Shown here piece after piece: positions 3,018 to 12,161 of a DNA stretch of 43,092 bases (position 1 is its first letter; the number at the start of each line of letters is the position of its first letter). Both the position numbers and the translations under genes were made by a program. Source of the stretch: Paenibacillaceae bacterium (GTDB lineage: Bacteria; Bacillota; Bacilli; Paenibacillales; CANHGK01). The DNA lies in contig CANHGK010000019.1 in assembly GCA_947460235.1 (NCBI GenBank), forward strand, positions 1-43,092, in the 5' to 3' direction. Under the pieces are notes generated by a model. It was not told where the DNA came from. It ran no database searches and was given only the letters and a program-made list of their open reading frames with translations.

Positions 3018-3593
3018 ATGCGGAAACTCGTTTTATTTTTGCACGCATCGCTTGATGGTTTTGTAGAAGGGCCGAACGGTCCAATGGACATGGGTTGGAT
3101 TTCCTATGATGCGGATTTAGAGAAACACGCGCATCACATTTTGAGCACTGCTGATACCATCATTTGGGGGCGTGGTACCTACCAGATGATGCATAGCTAT
3201 TGGCCAACGATGATTTCGAACCCAGAAGCATCTGAACATGAACGAAATCATGCCGCGTGGATCGAAAATGTCACCAAAATCGTTTTTTCAACTACACTTG
3301 ATCACGTCGAATGGAAAAATTCGAAACTTGTGAAAGAGAATGTCGAAGAAACAATCAAAAATCTTAAAAATCAGGAAGGCAACGATATCATCATCCTTGG
3401 CAGTCCTCGATTGGCCCACTACCTCATGCAACTCAATTTAATCGATGAGTTCAAAATATCTGTATCGCCCGTCTTGGTAGGAAGCGGATTGCCGCTTTTT
3501 CAAGGGATCAAGGAAAAGTTAAACTTGAAACTGATCGAGAACAAAACATTTGAGAGCGGAGCCATCGGCCTTATGTATCAAACCGTAAGATAA
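3018..3593 (+). CDS. RibD C-terminal / dihydrofolate-reductase-like protein (YwjB/YyaP type)
   Basis: The 191-aa protein begins MRKLVLFLHASLDGFVEGP, the N-terminal strand and SLDG motif of the RibD C-terminal/DHFR-fold family. Further hallmarks are TIIWGRGTYQMM (nucleotide-binding loop) and NDIIILGSPRLAHYLMQ, followed by SPVLVGSGLPLF near the C-terminus. Members are NAD(P)H-dependent reductases of mostly unknown substrate and are probably cytosolic. I chose the ATG at 3018 because AAAGGAG lies 8 bp before it; the in-frame ATG at 2985 has no ribosome site and falls at the predicted transcript start. It stands as a single gene ahead of a VOC protein. Confidence 0.85.
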   Translation: MRKLVLFLHASLDGFVEGPNGPMDMGWISYDADLEKHAHHILSTADTIIWGRGTYQMMHSYWPTMISNPEASEHERNHAAWIENVTKIVFSTTLDHVEWKNSKLVKENVEETIKNLKNQEGNDIIILGSPRLAHYLMQLNLIDEFKISVSPVLVGSGLPLFQGIKEKLNLKLIENKTFESGAIGLMYQTVR

Positions 3594-3686
3594 CGGCTTT
3601 TCATATAGGATTAGCAGGTAATTACGATTCAGAAATCACGAGAACGTTGAAATGTACTATAACGAATTTAAAGAGGTGTTTTGACA

Positions 3687-4103
3687 ATGGCATTAACGTC
3701 CATATTCACGAGCTTTAACGTGCCTGTTAAAAACGTTGAACAATCGAAAGTGTTCTTCACCGGAATCGGATTCACGCTCAATCCGAATTTCCCCGATAAC
3801 GAGAATTCGGTAGCTGTAGTGATTGGCGAAAACCTTCAGGTCATGCTGATCGATCGAACATTTTTTAATACACTCACGGAGAAAGAAACAGTCGATACGA
3901 GCAAGTATGCGCAGATGACGATTGCTTTGGCTTTCGAGAGCCGAGAAAAGGTCGATGAAATCGTGAATACCGCGTTATCCTTGGGCGGGAAATTGCACGC
4001 TGAACCTGAAGATTATGGGTTTATGTATCACTGGGGCTTCGTGGACTTGGACGGCCATTTGTGGGCCATTAACTACATGGGCTTAGATGCGACACAAGAT
4101 TGA
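3687..4103 (+). CDS. VOC superfamily protein (glyoxalase/bleomycin-resistance fold)
   Basis: This 138-aa protein has the two-module beta-alpha-beta-beta-beta pattern of the vicinal oxygen chelate superfamily: SFNVPVKNVEQSKVFFTGIGF at the N-terminus, VMLIDRTFF at the end of module one, and a C-terminal module ending GFVDLDGHLWAINYM. Such proteins act as lyases, dioxygenases or drug-binding resistance proteins; the substrate cannot be read from sequence. AAAGAGGTG at 3670-3678 supports the ATG at 3687 over the in-frame TTG six bases upstream. The gene lies between two other small cytosolic proteins in the same orientation but not tightly enough to prove an operon. Confidence 0.85.
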   Translation: MALTSIFTSFNVPVKNVEQSKVFFTGIGFTLNPNFPDNENSVAVVIGENLQVMLIDRTFFNTLTEKETVDTSKYAQMTIALAFESREKVDEIVNTALSLGGKLHAEPEDYGFMYHWGFVDLDGHLWAINYMGLDATQD

Positions 4104-4442
4104 GTCGAGCAGATCGCATACGACGAATTCGCAATCTGCTTCATGGTTGCGGATTCGATCACTTGCGTCGAATTACTTTCCCGCACAAATGGCACGAGAT
4201 ACATCAACATAAAAAAGATAAATGGCAATCGAAACCGAAAATTTCAACGGTTTCAGCCACACATTCAAAGCAAGCAACTTTCGAAAATCAACCATGGATA
4301 ATAGAAGTCAATCCCCTTTCCCTCGTTCACAACTTCCCACATTTGCACATTTGGTTCTTCACATCGCGCACATTCCGTTAGATCAAACACTGGACGCTGT
4401 GTTAAAATCAATTTAACCACCCTCACACAAAGGAGCGGCGTC
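4104..4442. other. 339-bp intergenic stretch
   Basis: Open frames here (for example from 4222) lack a ribosome site and family motifs, and their codon pattern is poor. I see no hairpin strong enough to call a terminator for the VOC gene. Confidence 0.5.
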
Positions 4443-4937
4443 ATGCAATCCACTACATTACGAATCTGCTTATGGTTTGATCAACAAGCAGAAGAAGCCG
4501 TACGATTCTACACATCGATCTTTGCCGATTCTGAAATTGGAGAGGCATCTTATTTTGGCACGGAAGGTTATGAACATCACGGCATGCCTGCAGGTACCGT
4601 CGCTACCATTGATTTCCGATTAAATCACATGCATTTCACAGCATTAAATGGCGGTCCGATTTTTACATTCAATGAAGCCATTTCCATTGTCGTCGAATGC
4701 GATACTCAATCGGAAATCGATCATTACTGGCAACATTTAAGCGTAGGAGGCGAACCTGGTCCTTGTGGCTGGTTAAAAGATCGTTTCGGCGTATCTTGGC
4801 AAATCAATCCACATGTCCTTCGTGACATGCTTCGTACCAAAGACGTTGCTGCGAAATCACGCGTAGAGCAAAAATTATATACCATGCAGAAACTAGAGAT
4901 CGCAGCATTGAAAAGCGCATTTGATTCGGAACAATAG
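4443..4937 (+). CDS. PhnB-like VOC protein (3-demethylubiquinone 3-methyltransferase domain)
   Basis: The 164-aa protein opens with LRICLWFDQQAEEAVRFYTSIF, the signature start of PhnB/glyoxalase_6-type VOC proteins. It continues with GTVATIDFRLNHMHFTALNGG and closes the fold with CGWLKDRFGVSWQINP. The family name comes from weak similarity to a methyltransferase; no methyl-transfer site is visible and most members are of unknown function. AAAGGAG lies about 8 bp before the ATG. A strong terminator follows at 4998-5034, so it ends its transcript. It is the second VOC-fold protein within 1.3 kb but is not a close duplicate of the first. Confidence 0.85.
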   Translation: MQSTTLRICLWFDQQAEEAVRFYTSIFADSEIGEASYFGTEGYEHHGMPAGTVATIDFRLNHMHFTALNGGPIFTFNEAISIVVECDTQSEIDHYWQHLSVGGEPGPCGWLKDRFGVSWQINPHVLRDMLRTKDVAAKSRVEQKLYTMQKLEIAALKSAFDSEQ

Positions 4938-4997
4938 GCGTCATCGTCCACCTGAGGTGATGATCCATTTCAGAATTGGATTCCTTTGGTAAAATGA

Positions 4998-5034
4998 AAA
5001 AGAGGGATTCGCAATCATGCGTTCCCTCTTTTTT
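4998..5034 (+). terminator. Rho-independent terminator after the PhnB-like gene
   Basis: AAAAGAGGGA (4998-5007) pairs perfectly with TCCCTCTTTT (5023-5032), and the T-run continues to 5034. An A-run on the other side means it could also work leftward. Confidence 0.9.
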
Positions 5035-5503
5035 ATGTTCAAATTGAGATTTCATAGAAACCTAAATTACGCATTCTCTTGCAAAATAATTTAGAAAGTA
5101 CTTCCCATTAGTCCGCACTACCTTTTCCACAAGAATTCGAAACACATCCTGTTTTTGCTGATTTTCAAAGTGGCATATTCAACATGATTCTCTTGAACAA
5201 TCACCTCAAAAATATTAAAGCAACATTTTCCAAAATCGATATGTCCTAAAATAAGATGTTCAATTTCCGAAGATATATCGCGCTAATTCTTCATTCGTTG
5301 TTTGGTCCAAAAATATGGGAAATATCGAATTACCAACTGATGACACCATGTACTCAAACAAAAGTGAACGGTTAAAAACATTCGCTTCGTTCTGTGCGTG
5401 AAGCGTGCGAGCAAGCAATTGGTTTGTTCAATGTGGATTCGCTAAACGTTCGAAAAAAAGATTCCTTCCAATTATTTCATGCGGGAATTGGGATATAAAA
5501 TAA
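5035..5503. other. 470-bp intergenic stretch
   Basis: No convincing gene on either strand. A short open stretch around 5385-5505 (plus strand) has neither start nor family motif. Base composition is AT-rich like the neighbouring non-coding DNA. Confidence 0.5.
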
Positions 5504-5959
5504 TCAACTTCTTTTTTTAATTTCAATGATGCTTAAGATAAACATGACGATACACAATGGCAATAAAAAATAATTTGCAATTCCCCCTGGAGGCGTTCCA
5601 TGCAATAAAATAGGAGGTTTCATTACTCCAACAGCCATTCTTCCAACTGTTTCCAATAATAATATCAAATAAAACAGAGGTATCAGTTTTCTGTATCTAA
5701 ATGCAACCAATAACTGAATAAAAGCATATAGTAGCTGCGAAAGTCCCCATAATCCAAAAGCAAAAACAATATTCTCTCCGCCCTTTGATAACTCCAATCC
5801 GGCAATACTTCCTGCTCCTCCGTCCGCTGCAAAAAAATGAATACAGCTTCTAACCGTGCTAACAATGGCTAATATTGTGAAAATCCACAGTGCAATTTTA
5901 TTGCCTTTATAATCATTATCTACTGTTTTGGGAAATATATGATTAAGTATTTTATTCAT
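5504..5959 (-). CDS. Small four-helix membrane protein of unknown function
   Basis: The 151-aa protein has four hydrophobic segments: IALWIFTILAIVSTV, IVFAFGLWGLSQLLYAF, LIPLFYLILLLETVGRM and YFLLPLCIVMFILSI. It ends in a positively charged tail (EIKKRS) and should be an integral cytoplasmic-membrane protein. I do not recognise a named family. The ATG at 5957-5959 is preferred over the in-frame ATG at 5977 because AGGGGAAG lies about 8 bp upstream of it, inside what would otherwise be codons 2-4. It stands alone and leftward between two non-coding stretches. Confidence 0.75.
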   Translation of the reverse strand: MNKILNHIFPKTVDNDYKGNKIALWIFTILAIVSTVRSCIHFFAADGGAGSIAGLELSKGGENIVFAFGLWGLSQLLYAFIQLLVAFRYRKLIPLFYLILLLETVGRMAVGVMKPPILLHGTPPGGIANYFLLPLCIVMFILSIIEIKKRS

Positions 5960-6195
5960 GTTCTGACTTCCCCTCATCTAAGTCCTTCAATCCTTCTTCG
6001 ATTTTTGCACGCACGTATAATTCATCAATAATATCATTCCACCTCAACAATAAACTTCAAAAATTTGTTCAAAATATACTCGCAATATGCTTACCAAACA
6101 TCATAAAAAATATTGCAATATCGACTTTTTTGTCTGGATATTCCTTCAATGGCGATACGCTCTTTCGTCACGGGGAATTTGAGACAGACAGTGAA

Positions 6196-6243
6196 GAGGC
6201 TGTTCCAAAGTCATGAAAAACTGACACTTTGGAACAACCCCTC
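6196..6243. terminator. Strong hairpin downstream of the CBM20-type secreted protein gene
   Basis: GTTCCAAAGT pairs perfectly with ACTTTGGAAC, and the stem extends outward to GAGG/CCTC with one imperfect step. It lies 7 bp beyond the stop of the leftward gene ending at 6250, so it probably terminates it. The T-run on the minus strand is poor, and sequences of this kind are often dispersed palindromes, so a repeat element is an alternative. Confidence 0.6.
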
Positions 6244-6249
6244 ATTTAT

Positions 6250-8430
6250 TTAATGCTTTTCAAATTTACTGACGCTGATCGTTACTTCTTCTTCATTGTT
6301 TTTGACAACAAAATTGCGATTCCCAGTGTATCGCTCGACCTCATTCCATGCTGATGTTTGACCATTCAACAACACTTTGTAATTAAACGATTTATTGAGC
6401 GTAGTCACGAAATCCACAACCCATGTGTTTGTGTTTGGAAGTCTATCTGCCAACAAAGCATCTGTTTTCCAAATTGGTGTAGACAAATCACTAGCTACGT
6501 AAACTTTGTCTACATTTGGATTGATGGTATTGATTACAGCATCTAATTTTATATTCAAACGAACGTGGGCTTTTGTTGATGTAATGTTTTTAAATTTTGA
6601 AATCAAAATGGTTTCCTCATTCGATCCATCGACCAATGTTTTCGTGACATGTTTTGAGACAATGTTTCCATCGTTTGTTAATTCTTCGTAATTGGATGAC
6701 TTGTCGATCAATACTTTGTATTCATAAGTGGACGCGCCATTCAAAACATTAGATGTGACCAAAAATTTGAATTCACCTGTTTTGTATTCAGTCATTTTCC
6801 AAGCATCCGTTGGGGTCCAATTATTGTCTTTTGATGCAATATAAAGGTTACGACCAGCAACAGCAATGGCTTTCACATAAATGGTTAACTCTTTGGGTTT
6901 GGCGATTATAAATGTTTTCGTATATGCATCAGAATAATTGCTTGTATTATTCACAAGATATTTCACTTGAAGCGTATAGGTTTTACCACTAACATAACCG
7001 CTTGCATTCACCGTTGCTTCCAATTTGGATAGATTGACATTTGGAACTCCAATTTTCGTATCTTCAGAAACGCCATTGATTGCGTTGCCATTTGAATCTA
7101 ATAGTTTAAATTGAACTGCATATTGACCTTGAATTGGGGCGGTTAGATAAAATGAATTGCTAACTATATTATATTCAATCGTTGCACTGGTCGGTTTTGG
7201 AGGTTTCGTCGCTGTAATGGTGACTGCACTGAATTTGCTTTTTGAAGCATTACCATTTTCATCTGAATAAAAACCTTCCACAACATACATTCCAGCATCT
7301 AACATTGATACATCAAAAGAGCCATAAGTACATCCATTGGTAAATGTGCAAGGTGAATTGGTGTTATTAACTCCCGTCTCACTGGTCGTGCTAATGGACG
7401 CGTTTAAATCATTGATTTTATACAAAGAAAATTTAGCCGTTGCATTCGATACATAAGAACGATCAGTTTTGACGGAAATCTGACCATTCGCAAATGATGT
7501 TTGAATTTGATTTGGTGGACTAAGCAAAGGAGCGGTATAATCGATTAACTTAGATGTTCCATATGATAAACTACCATCAGCGTTTTTAAAGTACGCCGTA
7601 ATAATGTATTTACCATAAGAATTAATTCCTGTATTTGCTAACGGAAATTGAGTGGAATAACCACTGATATAATTTTGGCTAAAAATTTCAGTTTGTTCAT
7701 CATTTGTTTTGGTAATTTTGATTTCAACTGATTGATTAATGGTTGAATCTGGCATGGAATAAAATAATGAAAATATACCTTTTTCGATTGTATATCCTAA
7801 ACTTGGTCCCTTGGATGGTGTTGTTGAAGTACTCATTGATGTTTGAAAAACCGCATCTCCATCTAATTCCATTAAATTAACTGCAGTAGTCGTCATATAG
7901 AATTTGCCGTTTGCATAGACGCTACGATCTCCTGTAAACCACGCCCATTCATATGGAGTACTAGATGAAGAACTGGTTAAATGAATGGCATACATTTTAC
8001 CTGCTGTTAATTGTACATTTGAGAATGAAAATGAAGTCAATAACTTTTGTGTTTGATCAAAACTTGATACACTTTCTTTCGTAACGATTTTTGAACCTAA
8101 AATGACACCATTAGGTTTGCCTGATGAATCTGTTCCCATAATATCTACGCGCAAACCAGCACCATCATTAGTGGTGTTGTCTAGACCCGTATTGGGTTTA
8201 TTAATAGAAATACCTAATTCAAGCAATTCTAAATTTCCAGTAACCGATGGCGTGAATGTTTGATAAAAATCACTGGAATTATTAATTCCAGCATTAGAAT
8301 TGGATTGTGAGATTTGTTTTTGATCTAATTGCAATGAATTTGTTGCGTAAACGGATGAGGATAAGATAAAAAACAATGAAAAAACAAAAAACGTAATGAA
8401 TTTGTTATGGTAAGTATTTATTTTTTTCAT
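6250..8430 (-). CDS. Large secreted protein with Ig-like region and two CBM20-like starch-binding modules
   Basis: The 726-aa protein starts with a clear signal peptide (MKKINTYHNKFITFFVFSLF, cleavage near SVYA). Residues ~40-200 form a beta-rich domain (QTFTPSVTGNLELLELGI; LTAGKMYAIHLTSSSS) common in surface lectin-like proteins. Residues ~205-510 are beta-strand repeats resembling Ig/fibronectin modules. The last ~215 residues hold two modules: the first has NLYIASKDNNWTPTDAWKM, and the second has KVYVASDLSTPIWKTD, SFNYKVLLNG and ERYTGNRNFVV, the pattern of CBM20 starch-binding domains. No catalytic domain is seen. Start: the ATG at 8428-8430, preceded by AAAAAAGGGGTAATC, is far better than the in-frame start 69 bp upstream. 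It probably binds glucan or cell-surface polysaccharide outside the cell. Confidence 0.75.
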   Translation of the reverse strand: MKKINTYHNKFITFFVFSLFFILSSSVYATNSLQLDQKQISQSNSNAGINNSSDFYQTFTPSVTGNLELLELGISINKPNTGLDNTTNDGAGLRVDIMGTDSSGKPNGVILGSKIVTKESVSSFDQTQKLLTSFSFSNVQLTAGKMYAIHLTSSSSSTPYEWAWFTGDRSVYANGKFYMTTTAVNLMELDGDAVFQTSMSTSTTPSKGPSLGYTIEKGIFSLFYSMPDSTINQSVEIKITKTNDEQTEIFSQNYISGYSTQFPLANTGINSYGKYIITAYFKNADGSLSYGTSKLIDYTAPLLSPPNQIQTSFANGQISVKTDRSYVSNATAKFSLYKINDLNASISTTSETGVNNTNSPCTFTNGCTYGSFDVSMLDAGMYVVEGFYSDENGNASKSKFSAVTITATKPPKPTSATIEYNIVSNSFYLTAPIQGQYAVQFKLLDSNGNAINGVSEDTKIGVPNVNLSKLEATVNASGYVSGKTYTLQVKYLVNNTSNYSDAYTKTFIIAKPKELTIYVKAIAVAGRNLYIASKDNNWTPTDAWKMTEYKTGEFKFLVTSNVLNGASTYEYKVLIDKSSNYEELTNDGNIVSKHVTKTLVDGSNEETILISKFKNITSTKAHVRLNIKLDAVINTINPNVDKVYVASDLSTPIWKTDALLADRLPNTNTWVVDFVTTLNKSFNYKVLLNGQTSAWNEVERYTGNRNFVVKNNEEEVTISVSKFEKH

Positions 8431-9258
8431 ATGATTACCCCTTTTTTGTTTTTTCGATCCATTCGAGACCCTTTTTGTTTTATTTGAACCTCCTCTCATT
8501 GAAATGAATCTTCGTCTGTTCGTAGGTCTTTAGACTGTCTTTAATACACTTGCGATTTCGTTCTTGGAACGTGGTTCCATCCAGGTTGCGACATCCATGA
8601 TGGATGCAAAGTCATCATAATTACGATGATTACAAAGACCAATGCACATTAATATTTCAAACAAATAACTACCCCTCCGCGTTATCAATGAAAACGCTGG
8701 GACATCGTAGGTTCGAACCAGATATACCTAATGCCCATAACATCGGTTTACGCCTGTTGCTCACACAACAGGACTTACATAACGGGGGTTCTTTAAACAG
8801 CGTATTTGAAACGAAGTTTCAATTCCTCATAGGTAGGATACAAACCCGTGAATCAACACTGTTTATGAAGTTTTTAGGTATCTCCATTTTTACACATTTC
8901 CATACTAATATTCAATGTTTTCTGAAAATTCAGTTTAGATTGGTTTTGAAGGTTCTTTACTAAAACGTCAAACCCCTGATATTTGCACGTTTAAGACCTT
9001 TCACAAAATAGACACAAGTTTACTTTTAACAACACGCGTAAAATCAAGCAAAATTGCGCCCTCTCGAACTTCGACCTCATATCACTGCATATATTCCGTT
9101 GTTTTCAAAAACTTTTCCGAATTACCTGCAAGAAATCAGTTGCTTAATTCGATTATTGAGTACAAAAACGTTGACCGAAAGATCGTTCCCATCGATCGCA
9201 TTCCATAAATCCTCGCTAATCTGCATTTGCTCATTACTGAAAATTTGCAGCGACAAGA
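8431..9258. other. 830-bp non-coding stretch carrying one CRISPR repeat
   Basis: Apart from the solitary CRISPR-type repeat at 8816-8845 and small inverted repeats near 8594-8625, nothing coding is supported. The 119-codon open frame at 8604-8963 runs straight through the repeat and lacks a ribosome site. No cas gene is near. Confidence 0.6.
8816..8845. CRISPR. Single orphan CRISPR repeat (30 bp)
   Basis: The 30 bases begin GTTTCAATTCCTCATAGG and end TAGGATACAAAC. On the minus strand this is GTTTGTATCC...GAGGAATTGAAAC, the form of the 30-bp repeats of type I-B/III arrays in Bacilli and Clostridia, with the conserved GAAAC end. No second copy occurs at the 60-75 bp spacing expected of an array, and I found none elsewhere in the window. 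The left end also overlaps a small palindrome, TTGAAAC-GAA-GTTTCAA (8807-8823). I read it as a relic of a lost array or a stray single repeat. Confidence 0.6.
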
Positions 9259-9669
9259 TGGTTCGCGAAAAATCAGTCAGTTAACCGAACCGCTACATCC
9301 GAACACCGCAAGACGCGTACGAATTCATCAAAACATTTTTGCAGGAAGCCGATCGTGAACATGTCATCGTTGTTTGCCTTGACGCCAAATTCAAACCAAC
9401 TTCCCCTACAACCTGCCACATCGGAAGATTAGACACCTGCGTTGTTCAATCCAGAGAAGTATTTAAGACCGATACGATCAGTAACGCCTCTTCAATCATC
9501 ATCGCACATCCGTCCGTCTGGTCTGTCATCTCCTACTAATGAAGATTTAACACTAACGAAACGTCTGCTCCAATCCGGCGAAGTACTCGGAATCCAAGTA
9601 ATTGACCACATGATCATTGGCAACGACTGCTTCTACTCACTGAAAGAGCGTGAACAATTACTACTTTAA
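9259..9669 (+). pseudogene. radC: RadC/JAB-domain protein, mobile-element type (broken)
   Basis: Joined across frames this reads MVREKSVS-stop-PNRYIRTPQDAYEF, then LQEADREHVIVVCLDAKFKP, SREVFKTDTISNASSIIIAH and, in another frame, SPTNEDLTLTKRLLQSGE, LGIQVIDHMIIG and YSLKEREQL. This is the C-terminal RadC JAB1/MPN-like domain. Damage: a TAA at 9283-9285 where family members have a Tyr/Leu-type residue, a frameshift near 9510-9530, and loss of the metal site, since HxHPSGD is reduced to HPS. The protein cannot be an active metallo-isopeptidase fold. Such short RadC copies are typical cargo of phages, plasmids and ICEs, matching the DUF960 relic just downstream. Confidence 0.8.
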
Positions 9670-9689
9670 TTGAAGAGAAAGCAACATCA

Positions 9690-9887
9690 ATGTTTCCGAA
9701 TTTTCCTTTACCAACCATGGGTGGACGCGTATTTTGGAAAACTATCGACGAAAATAATGGTTGGAAACTGCAACAAAATGGCATCACCGACCACTATTGG
9801 GTACTTGATCCACACGATTACCGACAAGCATGGGGCACGAATTTACGTAAAATGCGAAGAACGTTCGAATTATTTTCAGGAGAGTGA
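9690..9887 (+). CDS. Small conserved-looking protein, 65 aa, of unknown function
   Basis: The 65-aa protein begins MFPNFPLPTMGGRVFWKTID and continues with GWKLQQNGITDHYWVLD and a basic C-terminus (LRKMRRTFELF). It keeps a normal codon pattern and an open frame between two broken genes, with a purine-rich GAAGAGAAAG upstream. I do not recognise a named family. It ends 4 bp before the ATG of the DUF960 relic, so the radC, 65-aa and DUF960 genes were probably one operon of a mobile element. Confidence 0.6.
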   Translation: MFPNFPLPTMGGRVFWKTIDENNGWKLQQNGITDHYWVLDPHDYRQAWGTNLRKMRRTFELFSGE

Positions 9888-9891
9888 TCAG

Positions 9892-10122
9892 ATGTTCAAC
9901 AATGAAAGATATGCCACAAGTTGCATCATGGAGGAAATTCCGTTTGAGGTTCAATTAGTTGTCTGGACCTGGATCGACAATTTGAAGATCACTGAAGTGA
10001 ATTTGGATTACCTGCAGGTATTTGAATTGTAGACAGTTGATAACAAAGAAGGCGGTGGGATCAAAGTGACCCACCACCAAGCGCAACCAGAATATCGTGA
10101 AATCCATGTGTTTCCGTTTTAA
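9892..10122 (+). pseudogene. DUF960 family protein with an in-frame stop
   Basis: Starting at ATG 9892 (AGGAGAG just upstream) the frame reads MFNNERYATSCIMEEIPFEV, QLVVWTWIDNLKITE and DYLQVFEL. It hits TAG at 10030-10032, then continues in the same frame through KVTHHQAQPEYREIHVFPF to TAA at 10120-10122. The whole 76-codon frame matches the layout of DUF960 proteins (start MFxNxRY, EEIPxExQ, DYLQVFEL, then QxPEYxxExxF at the end). One C-to-T change turning CAG (Gln) into TAG would explain the stop. DUF960 proteins are usually encoded on phages, plasmids and ICEs; their function is unknown. Confidence 0.75.
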
Positions 10123-10158
10123 TAAACTGTTATGTACTAAAGGAGATATCGTCGAGTA

Positions 10159-10753
10159 TTAAATCCCTTCTCCAGTTCGATTCCACCGTGCGAGAAAATA
10201 CTCTACCCAATCAGGAATTTCTTCAGCCAAATATTCGATCTTCCCATTTATGATCTCAAGCAAATCGCGAGCCTCAAACGTATTATCCCAAAGGATCAAT
10301 TGAACTCGACCAACGGAGATGCACGAAATAAATGCTCCTGTGCACGTTCATATCGTCTAATAATATCTTCAATGGGAATATCATGCCCGCCCATTTTCAC
10401 ACGTTCTTTAACTCGGTCAATATGCCTTTGCATGCGATCTAATCCAATAAAATGCATAACCTCACGGAAACCTTGTTTCTTAGCTTCTTGCATTTGTAAA
10501 AATGGCAATCTGCCGGACAATGTCGTTTCCATCACAAAGGATTGTTTGTTATGTATCATTTGTTCAACCAATTGAATCGAAAATCGACCGGTTTGAATCG
10601 GGCTTTTTCCGGTTGACGAGGATTTAATGATTTTGCAATCGCATCCGGGTCGATGATGTACCCGCCGCCCTTAAATATCGTTTTTGATATAAATGTGCTT
10701 TTGCCCGCACCATTTTTCCCAGCAATAATCGACATGATCGGCTCATTGCTCAT
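10159..10753 (-). pseudogene. Zeta-toxin family kinase (two frameshifts)
   Basis: From ATG 10753 the frame reads MSNEPIMSIIAGKNGAGKST (Walker A; one Lys where Asn is usual), then GGYIIDPDAIAKSLNP and PEKARFK before drifting out of frame near 10585. A second frame gives VEQMIHNKQSFVMETTLSG, HFIGLDRMQRHIDRVKERV and HDIPIEDIIRRYERAQEHL. A third frame, entered near 10305, gives LILWDNTFEARDLLEIING to a TAA at 10159. Together they match zeta-type P-loop kinases, which phosphorylate UDP-activated cell-wall sugars. Two single-base-type frameshifts break the gene. Its start lies inside the end of the upstream antitoxin-like gene, an 11-nt overlap typical of translationally coupled toxin-antitoxin pairs. 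Confidence 0.8.
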
Positions 10754-10909
10754 ACGGAACCTCTTCTCGCTCACCATTCTCACGATCAATCACAACAAAT
10801 CACCGATGCCGTAGTAAACGGATGCACCTTTTTGTTTTGCTAGTTCTTTCGCTTCACAAATGGACTCGTTAAACATTTCTCGTAATTCATCCCGCGAAAA
10901 TTGATGCAT
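10743..10909 (-). pseudogene. Small antitoxin-like gene upstream of the zeta toxin (frameshifted)
   Basis: From ATG 10909 (GGGGGG upstream) it reads MHQFSRDELREMFNESICEA, KELAKQKGASVYYGIGDLL and then TGA. One frame over, the sequence continues VIDRENGEREEVPYEQ and stops at 10743-10745, overlapping the toxin start. Insertion of one base near 10797 would restore a ~55-aa protein with an acidic end. The position (directly upstream, overlapping by 11 nt) and size fit an antitoxin partner of zeta-like toxins; I cannot name a family. Both partners being broken suggests the toxin was lost first or at the same time. Confidence 0.6.
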
Positions 10910-11039
10910 CTTGATCCCCCCTACAGTGCGCCTCTCCATATTTTATTACGAAATGAGATGCTCGTTAACGACTCTAACCCATTTGTCTATGTAATCGAAA
11001 ATTGCGCCGCTTTTCAATTTCGTATCGATTTGTTGAATT

Positions 11040-12161
11040 TCAACCCCGATTCCGATACCCCAACGCCTCTAGCGTCAAATCCGTATATCCTGCCCCAATC
11101 CGATATGCACGAATCCGCTCTTCCCCACTCGCACCTTCGATCAGTCCTTTTTGCAACCATTGCTTGGCCCACTTTGTGATCGTAATCGCCTCTACTTGGA
11201 AAAGCCCTGCGATCTCTTTCGGCTTCACAGGCCGTTTGCATTCAAGTAGATAACGCAACAACGTCTTTTCATTCGGCGATAACGTCGCAATTCGCGGATC
11301 AATTTCTGATGTCGAAAATTGAATCGAGAGATTGGCAACTCGTTCAAAAGCGAGTGCCATAATGCGCACGAAATATTGGATCCATGGTGCCAAATCTGAC
11401 GGATTCGCTCTGCCGTCATAGTAGAGGGCCGGCAATCCCATTTGTAAATGTCGATAGTACCCCTGCAAGTCCTCGACATAATATTCTTCCATGGAATGAA
11501 ATCCTTTAACATCATAATTAGCAGTCGCAAGGATATAGGATGCAAGTGCACGAGCCGTCCGACCATTCCCATCTTCAAAGGGATGAATCGTTAACAATTG
11601 AAACGTAGCGATCGCAGCCTTAATTGGAACGGGCAAATCATTCTCCGTTTGAATCCATTCGATGAATTGATCCATCAAATCAGGCACATCACAATATTCC
11701 GGGGGAATATATTCTGGTTTACGAGTTTGGTTATCATATACCGCAAAAAGTACACCGGGCGGTGTCGGTCCACGATATTCGCTTTGAGCTGCCCGACGAC
11801 CAGCTCCATGTTGTACAATAATCGAATGCAATCGCTTGATAAATTCAGCTGTGATCGGAGTATGTGCTTGTTTTTGCTGCGACAAATACGATAGTGCTTC
11901 CCAGTAATTTCGCACTTCCTCTTCCACCGGAATTCGAAAATCATCCTGTTTTTGTTTCACAACGCGAGCCACTTGTTCCAAATCCAGCGTATTGCCTTCA
12001 ATCCGTGTAGAATAGTGTGTCATTTTTAATTTCGCTTGTTCTTTCAAATCATTTTCAATGTGCGCGGGGATTGGCATCAATTCAACAATCGCTCTGGATC
12101 GCTCAATTGACATCAGATCTTTTACGATTTGCAACGCAAATGTAAATTTGGGCGTGAACAC
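11040..12161 (-). CDS. Fic family protein, self-inhibited by an N-terminal helix, with C-terminal winged helix
   Basis: The 373-aa protein carries the Fic catalytic motif HPFEDGNGRTAR from His193, so it should transfer AMP (or another nucleotide part) to target hydroxyls. The inhibitory-helix motif SxxxEG is present as STRIEG at residues 51-56, before the core, which makes it a class II Fic protein. Around residues 125-155 it has the beta-hairpin target-binding flap. The last ~80 residues (SPNEKTLLRYLLECKRPVKP, EAITITKWAKQWLQKGLI) form a winged helix-turn-helix. The start is GTG 12161 behind AGAAGGGATG. It is one of the few intact genes of the island. The phased repeat array at 12203-12286 and a perfect -10 lie directly upstream, so autoregulation by its own winged helix is plausible. 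Confidence 0.9.
   Translation of the reverse strand: MFTPKFTFALQIVKDLMSIERSRAIVELMPIPAHIENDLKEQAKLKMTHYSTRIEGNTLDLEQVARVVKQKQDDFRIPVEEEVRNYWEALSYLSQQKQAHTPITAEFIKRLHSIIVQHGAGRRAAQSEYRGPTPPGVLFAVYDNQTRKPEYIPPEYCDVPDLMDQFIEWIQTENDLPVPIKAAIATFQLLTIHPFEDGNGRTARALASYILATANYDVKGFHSMEEYYVEDLQGYYRHLQMGLPALYYDGRANPSDLAPWIQYFVRIMALAFERVANLSIQFSTSEIDPRIATLSPNEKTLLRYLLECKRPVKPKEIAGLFQVEAITITKWAKQWLQKGLIEGASGEERIRAYRIGAGYTDLTLEALGYRNRG

Follow-up and report, generated by a model that had tools for sequence, protein, structure and literature searches.

A solitary CRISPR repeat beside a putative worn leader, probably left from a collapsed type I-B-family array, in a Paenibacillaceae genome

In Weizmannia coagulans the CRISPR repeat GTTTGTATTTTACCTATGAGGAATTGAAAC is listed as type I-B, and in the account given of that species several orphan arrays without cas genes are read as remnants of lost loci (PMC8954581). 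Single repeats are also described outside arrays: solitary repeat units, or RNA anti-CRISPRs (Racr), number 2,103 on viruses and 90 on plasmids in the figures reported by their survey (PMC10651486), and the ectopic repeats of CreTA modules are presented in the cited work as repeats of a type I-B setting that do not belong to an array (PMC9458426). Here we describe a repeat that stands alone in a contig of 43,092 nucleotides from a Paenibacillaceae bacterium, the whole of which is referred to below as the window, and compare it with these systems and with related loci in other genomes.

The repeat is 30 nt long and is read in the canonical CRISPR repeat orientation on the minus strand, where positions 8845-8816 give GTTTGTATCCTACCTATGAGGAATTGAAAC. 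It matches the Rfam family CRISPR-DR2 (RF01315) over model positions 1-30 of 30 with 48.1 bits, against a gathering score of 37, and an E-value of 1.2e-7 in a search of 3.5 kb; a score above gathering over the full model places it in that family. The 13-nt repeat core GAGGAATTGAAAC at 8816-8828 on the minus strand is found once where 0.12 matches are expected with up to one mismatch, and it has a single occurrence in the whole genome (2,722,827 bases in 42 contigs, 99.2% complete), in which a CRISPR-DR2 scan also gives one match above the gathering score, with the next best at 19.5 bits. No other site in the window agrees at 22 or more of the 30 positions in an ungapped scan, and on both strands of 8301-9500 no site besides the repeat itself exceeds 18/30, a level reached only by its own opposite-strand reading. 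The preliminary description had reported a lone 30-bp CRISPR repeat here, and the full-length family match and the sole copy in the genome confirm that it is real; an array, in the sense of at least two repeats with spacers, is not present at 8816-8845. It had also called the surrounding DNA non-coding. The 119-aa open reading frame at 8604-8963, which overlaps the repeat, has no Pfam or PADLOC match, and non-coding is therefore a fair reading. A spacer candidate at 8740-8815 matched no phage at E-values up to 1. We considered and rejected an inverted repeat, TAAACAGTGTTGA / TACGCTGTTTA, with arms on either side of the solitary repeat: its 101-nt fold has a z-score of -2.16, but 242 of 1964 GC-matched sites in the window are as good.

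Table 1. Features of the repeat locus and its neighbourhood (window coordinates).
Feature	Position	Strand	Remarks
Solitary CRISPR repeat GTTTGTATCCTACCTATGAGGAATTGAAAC	8816..8845	minus	type I-B/III family, CRISPR-DR2 by Rfam
Diverged (decayed) CRISPR leader, putative	8846..9015	minus	upstream of repeat; alignment to 13 Anoxybacillus/Parageobacillus/Geobacillus leaders
Putative leader core-element remnant GTCGTCGACCTCCAAT..TGCAAAAA..GGGGGATCGACGACA	8963..8997	minus	left arm mostly deleted
ACTGAATTTTC	8924..8934	minus	identical to block in and after -35 region of Anoxybacillus leaders
Broken radC-like gene (JAB domain)	9309..9667	plus	frameshifted and with stops; phrog_10276 in two frames, PF04002 47.2 bits
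DUF960 fragment	9904..10029	plus	PF06124 36.4 bits
Broken P-loop gene, weakly zeta-kinase-like (toxin-antitoxin family)	10559..10963	minus	PF06414 19.3 bits, below cut-off of 22.3
Intact Fic-family gene, next whole gene past decayed stretch	11040..12161	minus	PF02661 65.8 bits; PADLOC SoFic model

The supporting evidence named in the preliminary description was a full array at another place made of the identical repeat. The exact 30-mer is absent from every viral_contigs and genome_contigs record, but versions that agree at 29 of 30 positions are present in arrays: with any base allowed at position 10, 19 stretches match in ten named species of Anoxybacillus, Parageobacillus, Geobacillus and Thermoactinomyces, and the arrays that hold these repeats have up to 61 units. 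The adverse outcome that had also been named, that nothing similar would exist anywhere, thus did not arise. Within the bacterium's own order, 6 of 198 genomes match with up to three mismatches, its own included; the other five differ at three positions, and the best repeat from the order in these 198 genomes reaches 27/30, as against 29/30 in Anoxybacillus, Geobacillus and Thermoactinomyces. A two-repeat array in Anoxybacillus ayderensis (L052), with a leader of the same family, lies directly ahead of cas6, cas8b1/Cst1 and cas7/Cst2 and is of type I-B; it is the only locus with cas genes in NCBIfam scans of the genes near other arrays, which returned mostly housekeeping functions. Arrays of this repeat family are also carried by Geobacillus plasmids.

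The orphan arrays and degenerated I-B loci of W. coagulans belong to the same repeat family, GTTTGTATTTTACCTATGAGGAATTGAAAC agreeing with the window repeat at 28/30 positions, but as they are described they keep many repeats, whereas the window locus has one repeat and a worn leader (PMC8954581). With the solitary units as that survey defines them, the window repeat shares the presence of one repeat of full length, an identity to known repeats of 90% or more (29/30) and 100-bp flanks with no second or partial repeat in the ungapped scan; unlike them it comes with no recognised mobile element and no promoter-like site on its own strand, and it has a leader remnant upstream (PMC10651486). It resembles the CreTA repeats in standing outside an array and in its type I-B context, but those are characterised as degenerate and working with a resident Cascade, whereas the window repeat is intact and the Cas6 and DevR models find no I-B effector (PMC9458426). 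By these models the locus also lacks the I-B effector genes of a CreTA module, which is made up of repeat-like units and a toxin RNA under Cascade control beside cas genes. We found no paper in the literature that joins a CRISPR single-repeat remnant, leader and orphan, and none for the Geobacillus-type 30-mer.

The CRISPR system of the host is of type II. The only Cas1 gene of the genome is on contig C25, where a complete type II locus (L013, G000:C25, positions 3275-9790) comprises a Cas9 of 1122 aa, Cas1, Cas2 and a 28-unit array; Cas9 matches TIGR01865 with 738 bits, Cas1 matches the type II model TIGR03639, Cas2 is matched as well, and the array has a different, 36-nt repeat, ATTTTAGCACAACCAGAGATCACCGGGAGTTATAAC. 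Models for Cas7/DevR (PF01905), Cas6 (TIGR01877) and Csm1/Cas10 (TIGR02578) have no match in the host genome, and the four matches of the Cas3 core model are all below cut-off and of a kind that control genomes give too. A type I-B system, sought as cas6, cas7/DevR, cas3 and a type I Cas1 in the genome, is not found in this host. The absence of cas genes claimed earlier thus stands for the cognate type but not for the genome, which carries the complete type II locus, and the repeat at 8816-8845 stands without its own machinery while the cell has a CRISPR system of another type. Contig C25 also holds conjugation-type genes (a VirD4-like open reading frame by eye) and a group II intron, and begins (L013 1-120) with about nine copies of a 14-nt tandem repeat, ATATCTAATACTGA.

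Leaders from Bacillaceae and from the order of the window's host (L049-L067, L014, L008, L072-L101) have in common a conserved 45-nt element with palindromic arms, GTCGTCGACCTCCAAT..TGCAAAAA..GGGGGATCGACGACA, located 100-150 nt ahead of the first repeat. In the 200 nt that precede the first repeat, the Anoxybacillus and Geobacillus leaders show a further block, ATTGACTGAATTTTC, downstream of this element. The flank of the window repeat retains CGTGCAAATATC (8978-8989), GGGGTTTGACG (8966-8976) and ACTGAATTTTC, in the same order and orientation as in the leaders. In the core remnant 25-26 of the 45 positions are kept, 10 are deleted and 9-10 of the 35 aligned positions are substituted, a match equalled by 0-1 of 500 shuffles. 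The junction between leader and repeat, ACGG followed by GTTTG, is that of leaders L014 and L081. The internal spacing differs, the distance from the core to ACTGAATTTTC being about 20 nt shorter in the window, with extra nucleotides before the repeat.

The whole flank was compared with 13 reference leaders, 12 of them from loci with 29/30 repeats and one from a plasmid (L044); L057, L060, L063, the second L065 leader, L045, L061, L064 and L056 were left out as near-duplicates or because they are cut by contig ends or Ns, and L054 and L048 served as test cases outside the reference set. This test, controlled by shuffles, by tiles of the window and by other loci, was designed after the motifs had been seen and was adopted after a negative nhmmer search. 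The flank at 8846-9015 scores a global z of 4.1 and a local z of 5.5, with none of 500 dinucleotide shuffles as good in either case, whereas the opposite, downstream flank gives 0.5 and -1.3 (160 and 458 of 500 shuffles as good). None of 994 other tiles of the window equals its global mean score; for local scores 1 to 37 of the 994 do so, depending on the setting. Held-out leaders of arrays (L014, L008, L005, L048, L054) reach global z values of 3.2 to 14.3 and local values of 10.9 to 38.4, four of the five without a shuffle as good on either score and L048 with 1/500 global and 0/500 local, and five single repeats from phages and other viruses give z values of -2.5 to 1.4. A solitary repeat in another genome (L007 in G107) has no leader signal (37 and 200 of 500 shuffles as good), so that one explanation does not cover all solitary repeats of this family.

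Applied to the whole window, nhmmer does not single out the flank: two blocks have E-values of 5.2 and 7.7, no better than unrelated sites, and the leader claim therefore rests on position and alignment. A MAFFT alignment of the flank with the leaders is no more than suggestive. The mark of an array remnant would be leader homology upstream of the repeat and not downstream; this pattern is found by the shuffle test and is weak by nhmmer. Judged from its sequence, the flank resembles a worn CRISPR leader, with a weak match.

We consider it likely that 8816-9015 comprises the leader and one repeat left from a collapsed array of the type I-B family. The ancestor would have had leader-repeat-spacer-repeat units at this locus, and recombination between the first and the last repeat probably removed all of the spacers and the other repeats at once. 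The matching cas genes are absent, and would have been lost subsequently unless they were never near. The leader has diverged, presumably once neither transcription nor spacer uptake depended on it. The decayed neighbours, a broken radC, a DUF960 fragment and a broken P-loop gene, support array loss. The locus probably does nothing now and is a dead relic, because the model search found neither a Cas6 that could cut its transcript nor an I-B Cas1-Cas2 pair for adding spacers. Among the origins proposed in the preliminary description, the last trace of an array has support from the position of the decayed leader, which lies on the side of the repeat where a leader is expected. A recombination scar would fit as the mechanism, in that repeats would have recombined with each other. 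A mini-array on a mobile element finds no support: there is no second repeat and no promoter-like site close upstream, and the comparison with phage and plasmid sequences gave no similarity across 8300-10150.

A collapsed CRISPR array is a known and ordinary kind of thing; the puzzle is an intact repeat beside a decayed leader. With about 27% of the core-element positions changed, about eight changes would be predicted in the 30 nt of the repeat and 0-1 are seen, which speaks against a neutral relic. Either the leader element was lost by another route, or an incomplete element was already present in the ancestor, or selection still acts on the repeat.

Searched for with up to two mismatches, the 45-nt core element was found in 11 of the 392 genomes examined from the order, and not in that of the window. 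Among 30 core-element loci, 27 have at least two repeats downstream, L081 is followed by a single repeat, and L092 and L101 have none in the test, although an array with another repeat is present at L092. In genome G391 (L081/L102; L102 7130-7326) an intact leader is followed by one repeat of the same family, and in G048 (L006/L088) a leader is followed by one whole and one worn repeat. Both share with the window the order, the leader core element and a single whole repeat of the family, but their leaders are intact whereas that of the window is decayed; G048 has cas6 elsewhere in its genome, and G391 has no Cas6 match but keeps other, longer orphan arrays of the same family. These loci are plausible intermediates toward a leader with a single repeat. 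An intact array, an orphan array, a leader with one repeat and a worn leader with one repeat are each seen in different genomes, from which we infer their succession.

The main rival to a collapsed array is that the solitary unit is an RNA anti-CRISPR, which would have arrived with a phage or mobile element and whose repeat transcript would occupy the Cas6/Cas7 of an invader's or a neighbour's I-B or III system. It would suit a repeat that is perfect while its surroundings have decayed, and like units of the same family occur in Paenibacillus phage Scottie and in a Parageobacillus phage, besides the many recorded on viruses and plasmids. It is nonetheless improbable, since 8300-10150 has no phage or plasmid similarity and the leader signal found here is missing from the phage units. 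Solitary units usually sit directly behind a promoter; between 8400 and 9300 there is one promoter-like site, fewer than in shuffles, at 9026-9054 on the strand opposite to the repeat; none lies on the strand of the repeat, and no terminator was found in the same interval. The host moreover has no I-B/III target by the models tried, as against the 83% of prophage units reported in that survey to match the subtype of their host (PMC10651486). The units of Scottie (L022, 2440-2600) and of the Parageobacillus phage (L023, 2430-2600) look Racr-like by eye, with promoter-like boxes close upstream and one whole and one partial repeat, followed by a stem with a T-run in Scottie and by stem-like sequence in the Parageobacillus phage.

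A relic encoded by the host and kept by selection, in which the repeat would have some local role, for instance binding a protein, trapping Cas proteins that arrive on plasmids or receiving incoming arrays by recombination, would explain why the repeat has 0-1 changes beside a leader core with 9-10 substitutions in 35 aligned positions and 10 more deleted. That comparison presumes a full core element in the ancestral leader, however, and the Geobacillus leader L054 has no core although its array is kept; the pattern would look no different after a large deletion or with a variant leader, and we regard selection as an unlikely explanation. Distinctly unlikely is the more specific proposal that the repeat outlived its array as something still useful, its transcript or DNA site in the host trapping Cas6/Cas7 or capturing I-B arrays and so guarding a Cas9-reliant cell against the class 1 CRISPR of plasmids. 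Should selection be acting on the intact repeat, RNA anti-CRISPRs would have in it a counterpart on the chromosome. That there was never a chromosomal array, and that illegitimate recombination with foreign DNA such as a plasmid of thermophilic Bacillaceae left a single repeat as a scar, is very unlikely: the repeat, and ACTGAATTTTC likewise, is nearer to Anoxybacillus, Geobacillus and Thermoactinomyces than to its own order, and Geobacillus plasmids do carry such arrays, but the flanks have no plasmid similarity and the leader signal spans about 150 nt, so that at least a leader-repeat unit would have come, which is an array again.

As the remnant of a collapsed array, the locus would illustrate clearly the way in which a CRISPR locus may vanish, with the cas genes gone, the array reduced to leader and one repeat, and the leader decaying, and with possible earlier stages in the same order. 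Upstream leader homology, which the five tested viral units lack, would also allow array relics to be separated from phage-borne solitary repeats. The stretch from about 8870 to 11000 is full of broken genes, up to the intact Fic gene. At the beginning of the window, positions 1-432 hold 9- and 12-nt repeats, which lie in the 3' end of a minus-strand gene that encodes a repeat-rich surface protein and is truncated by the end of the contig.
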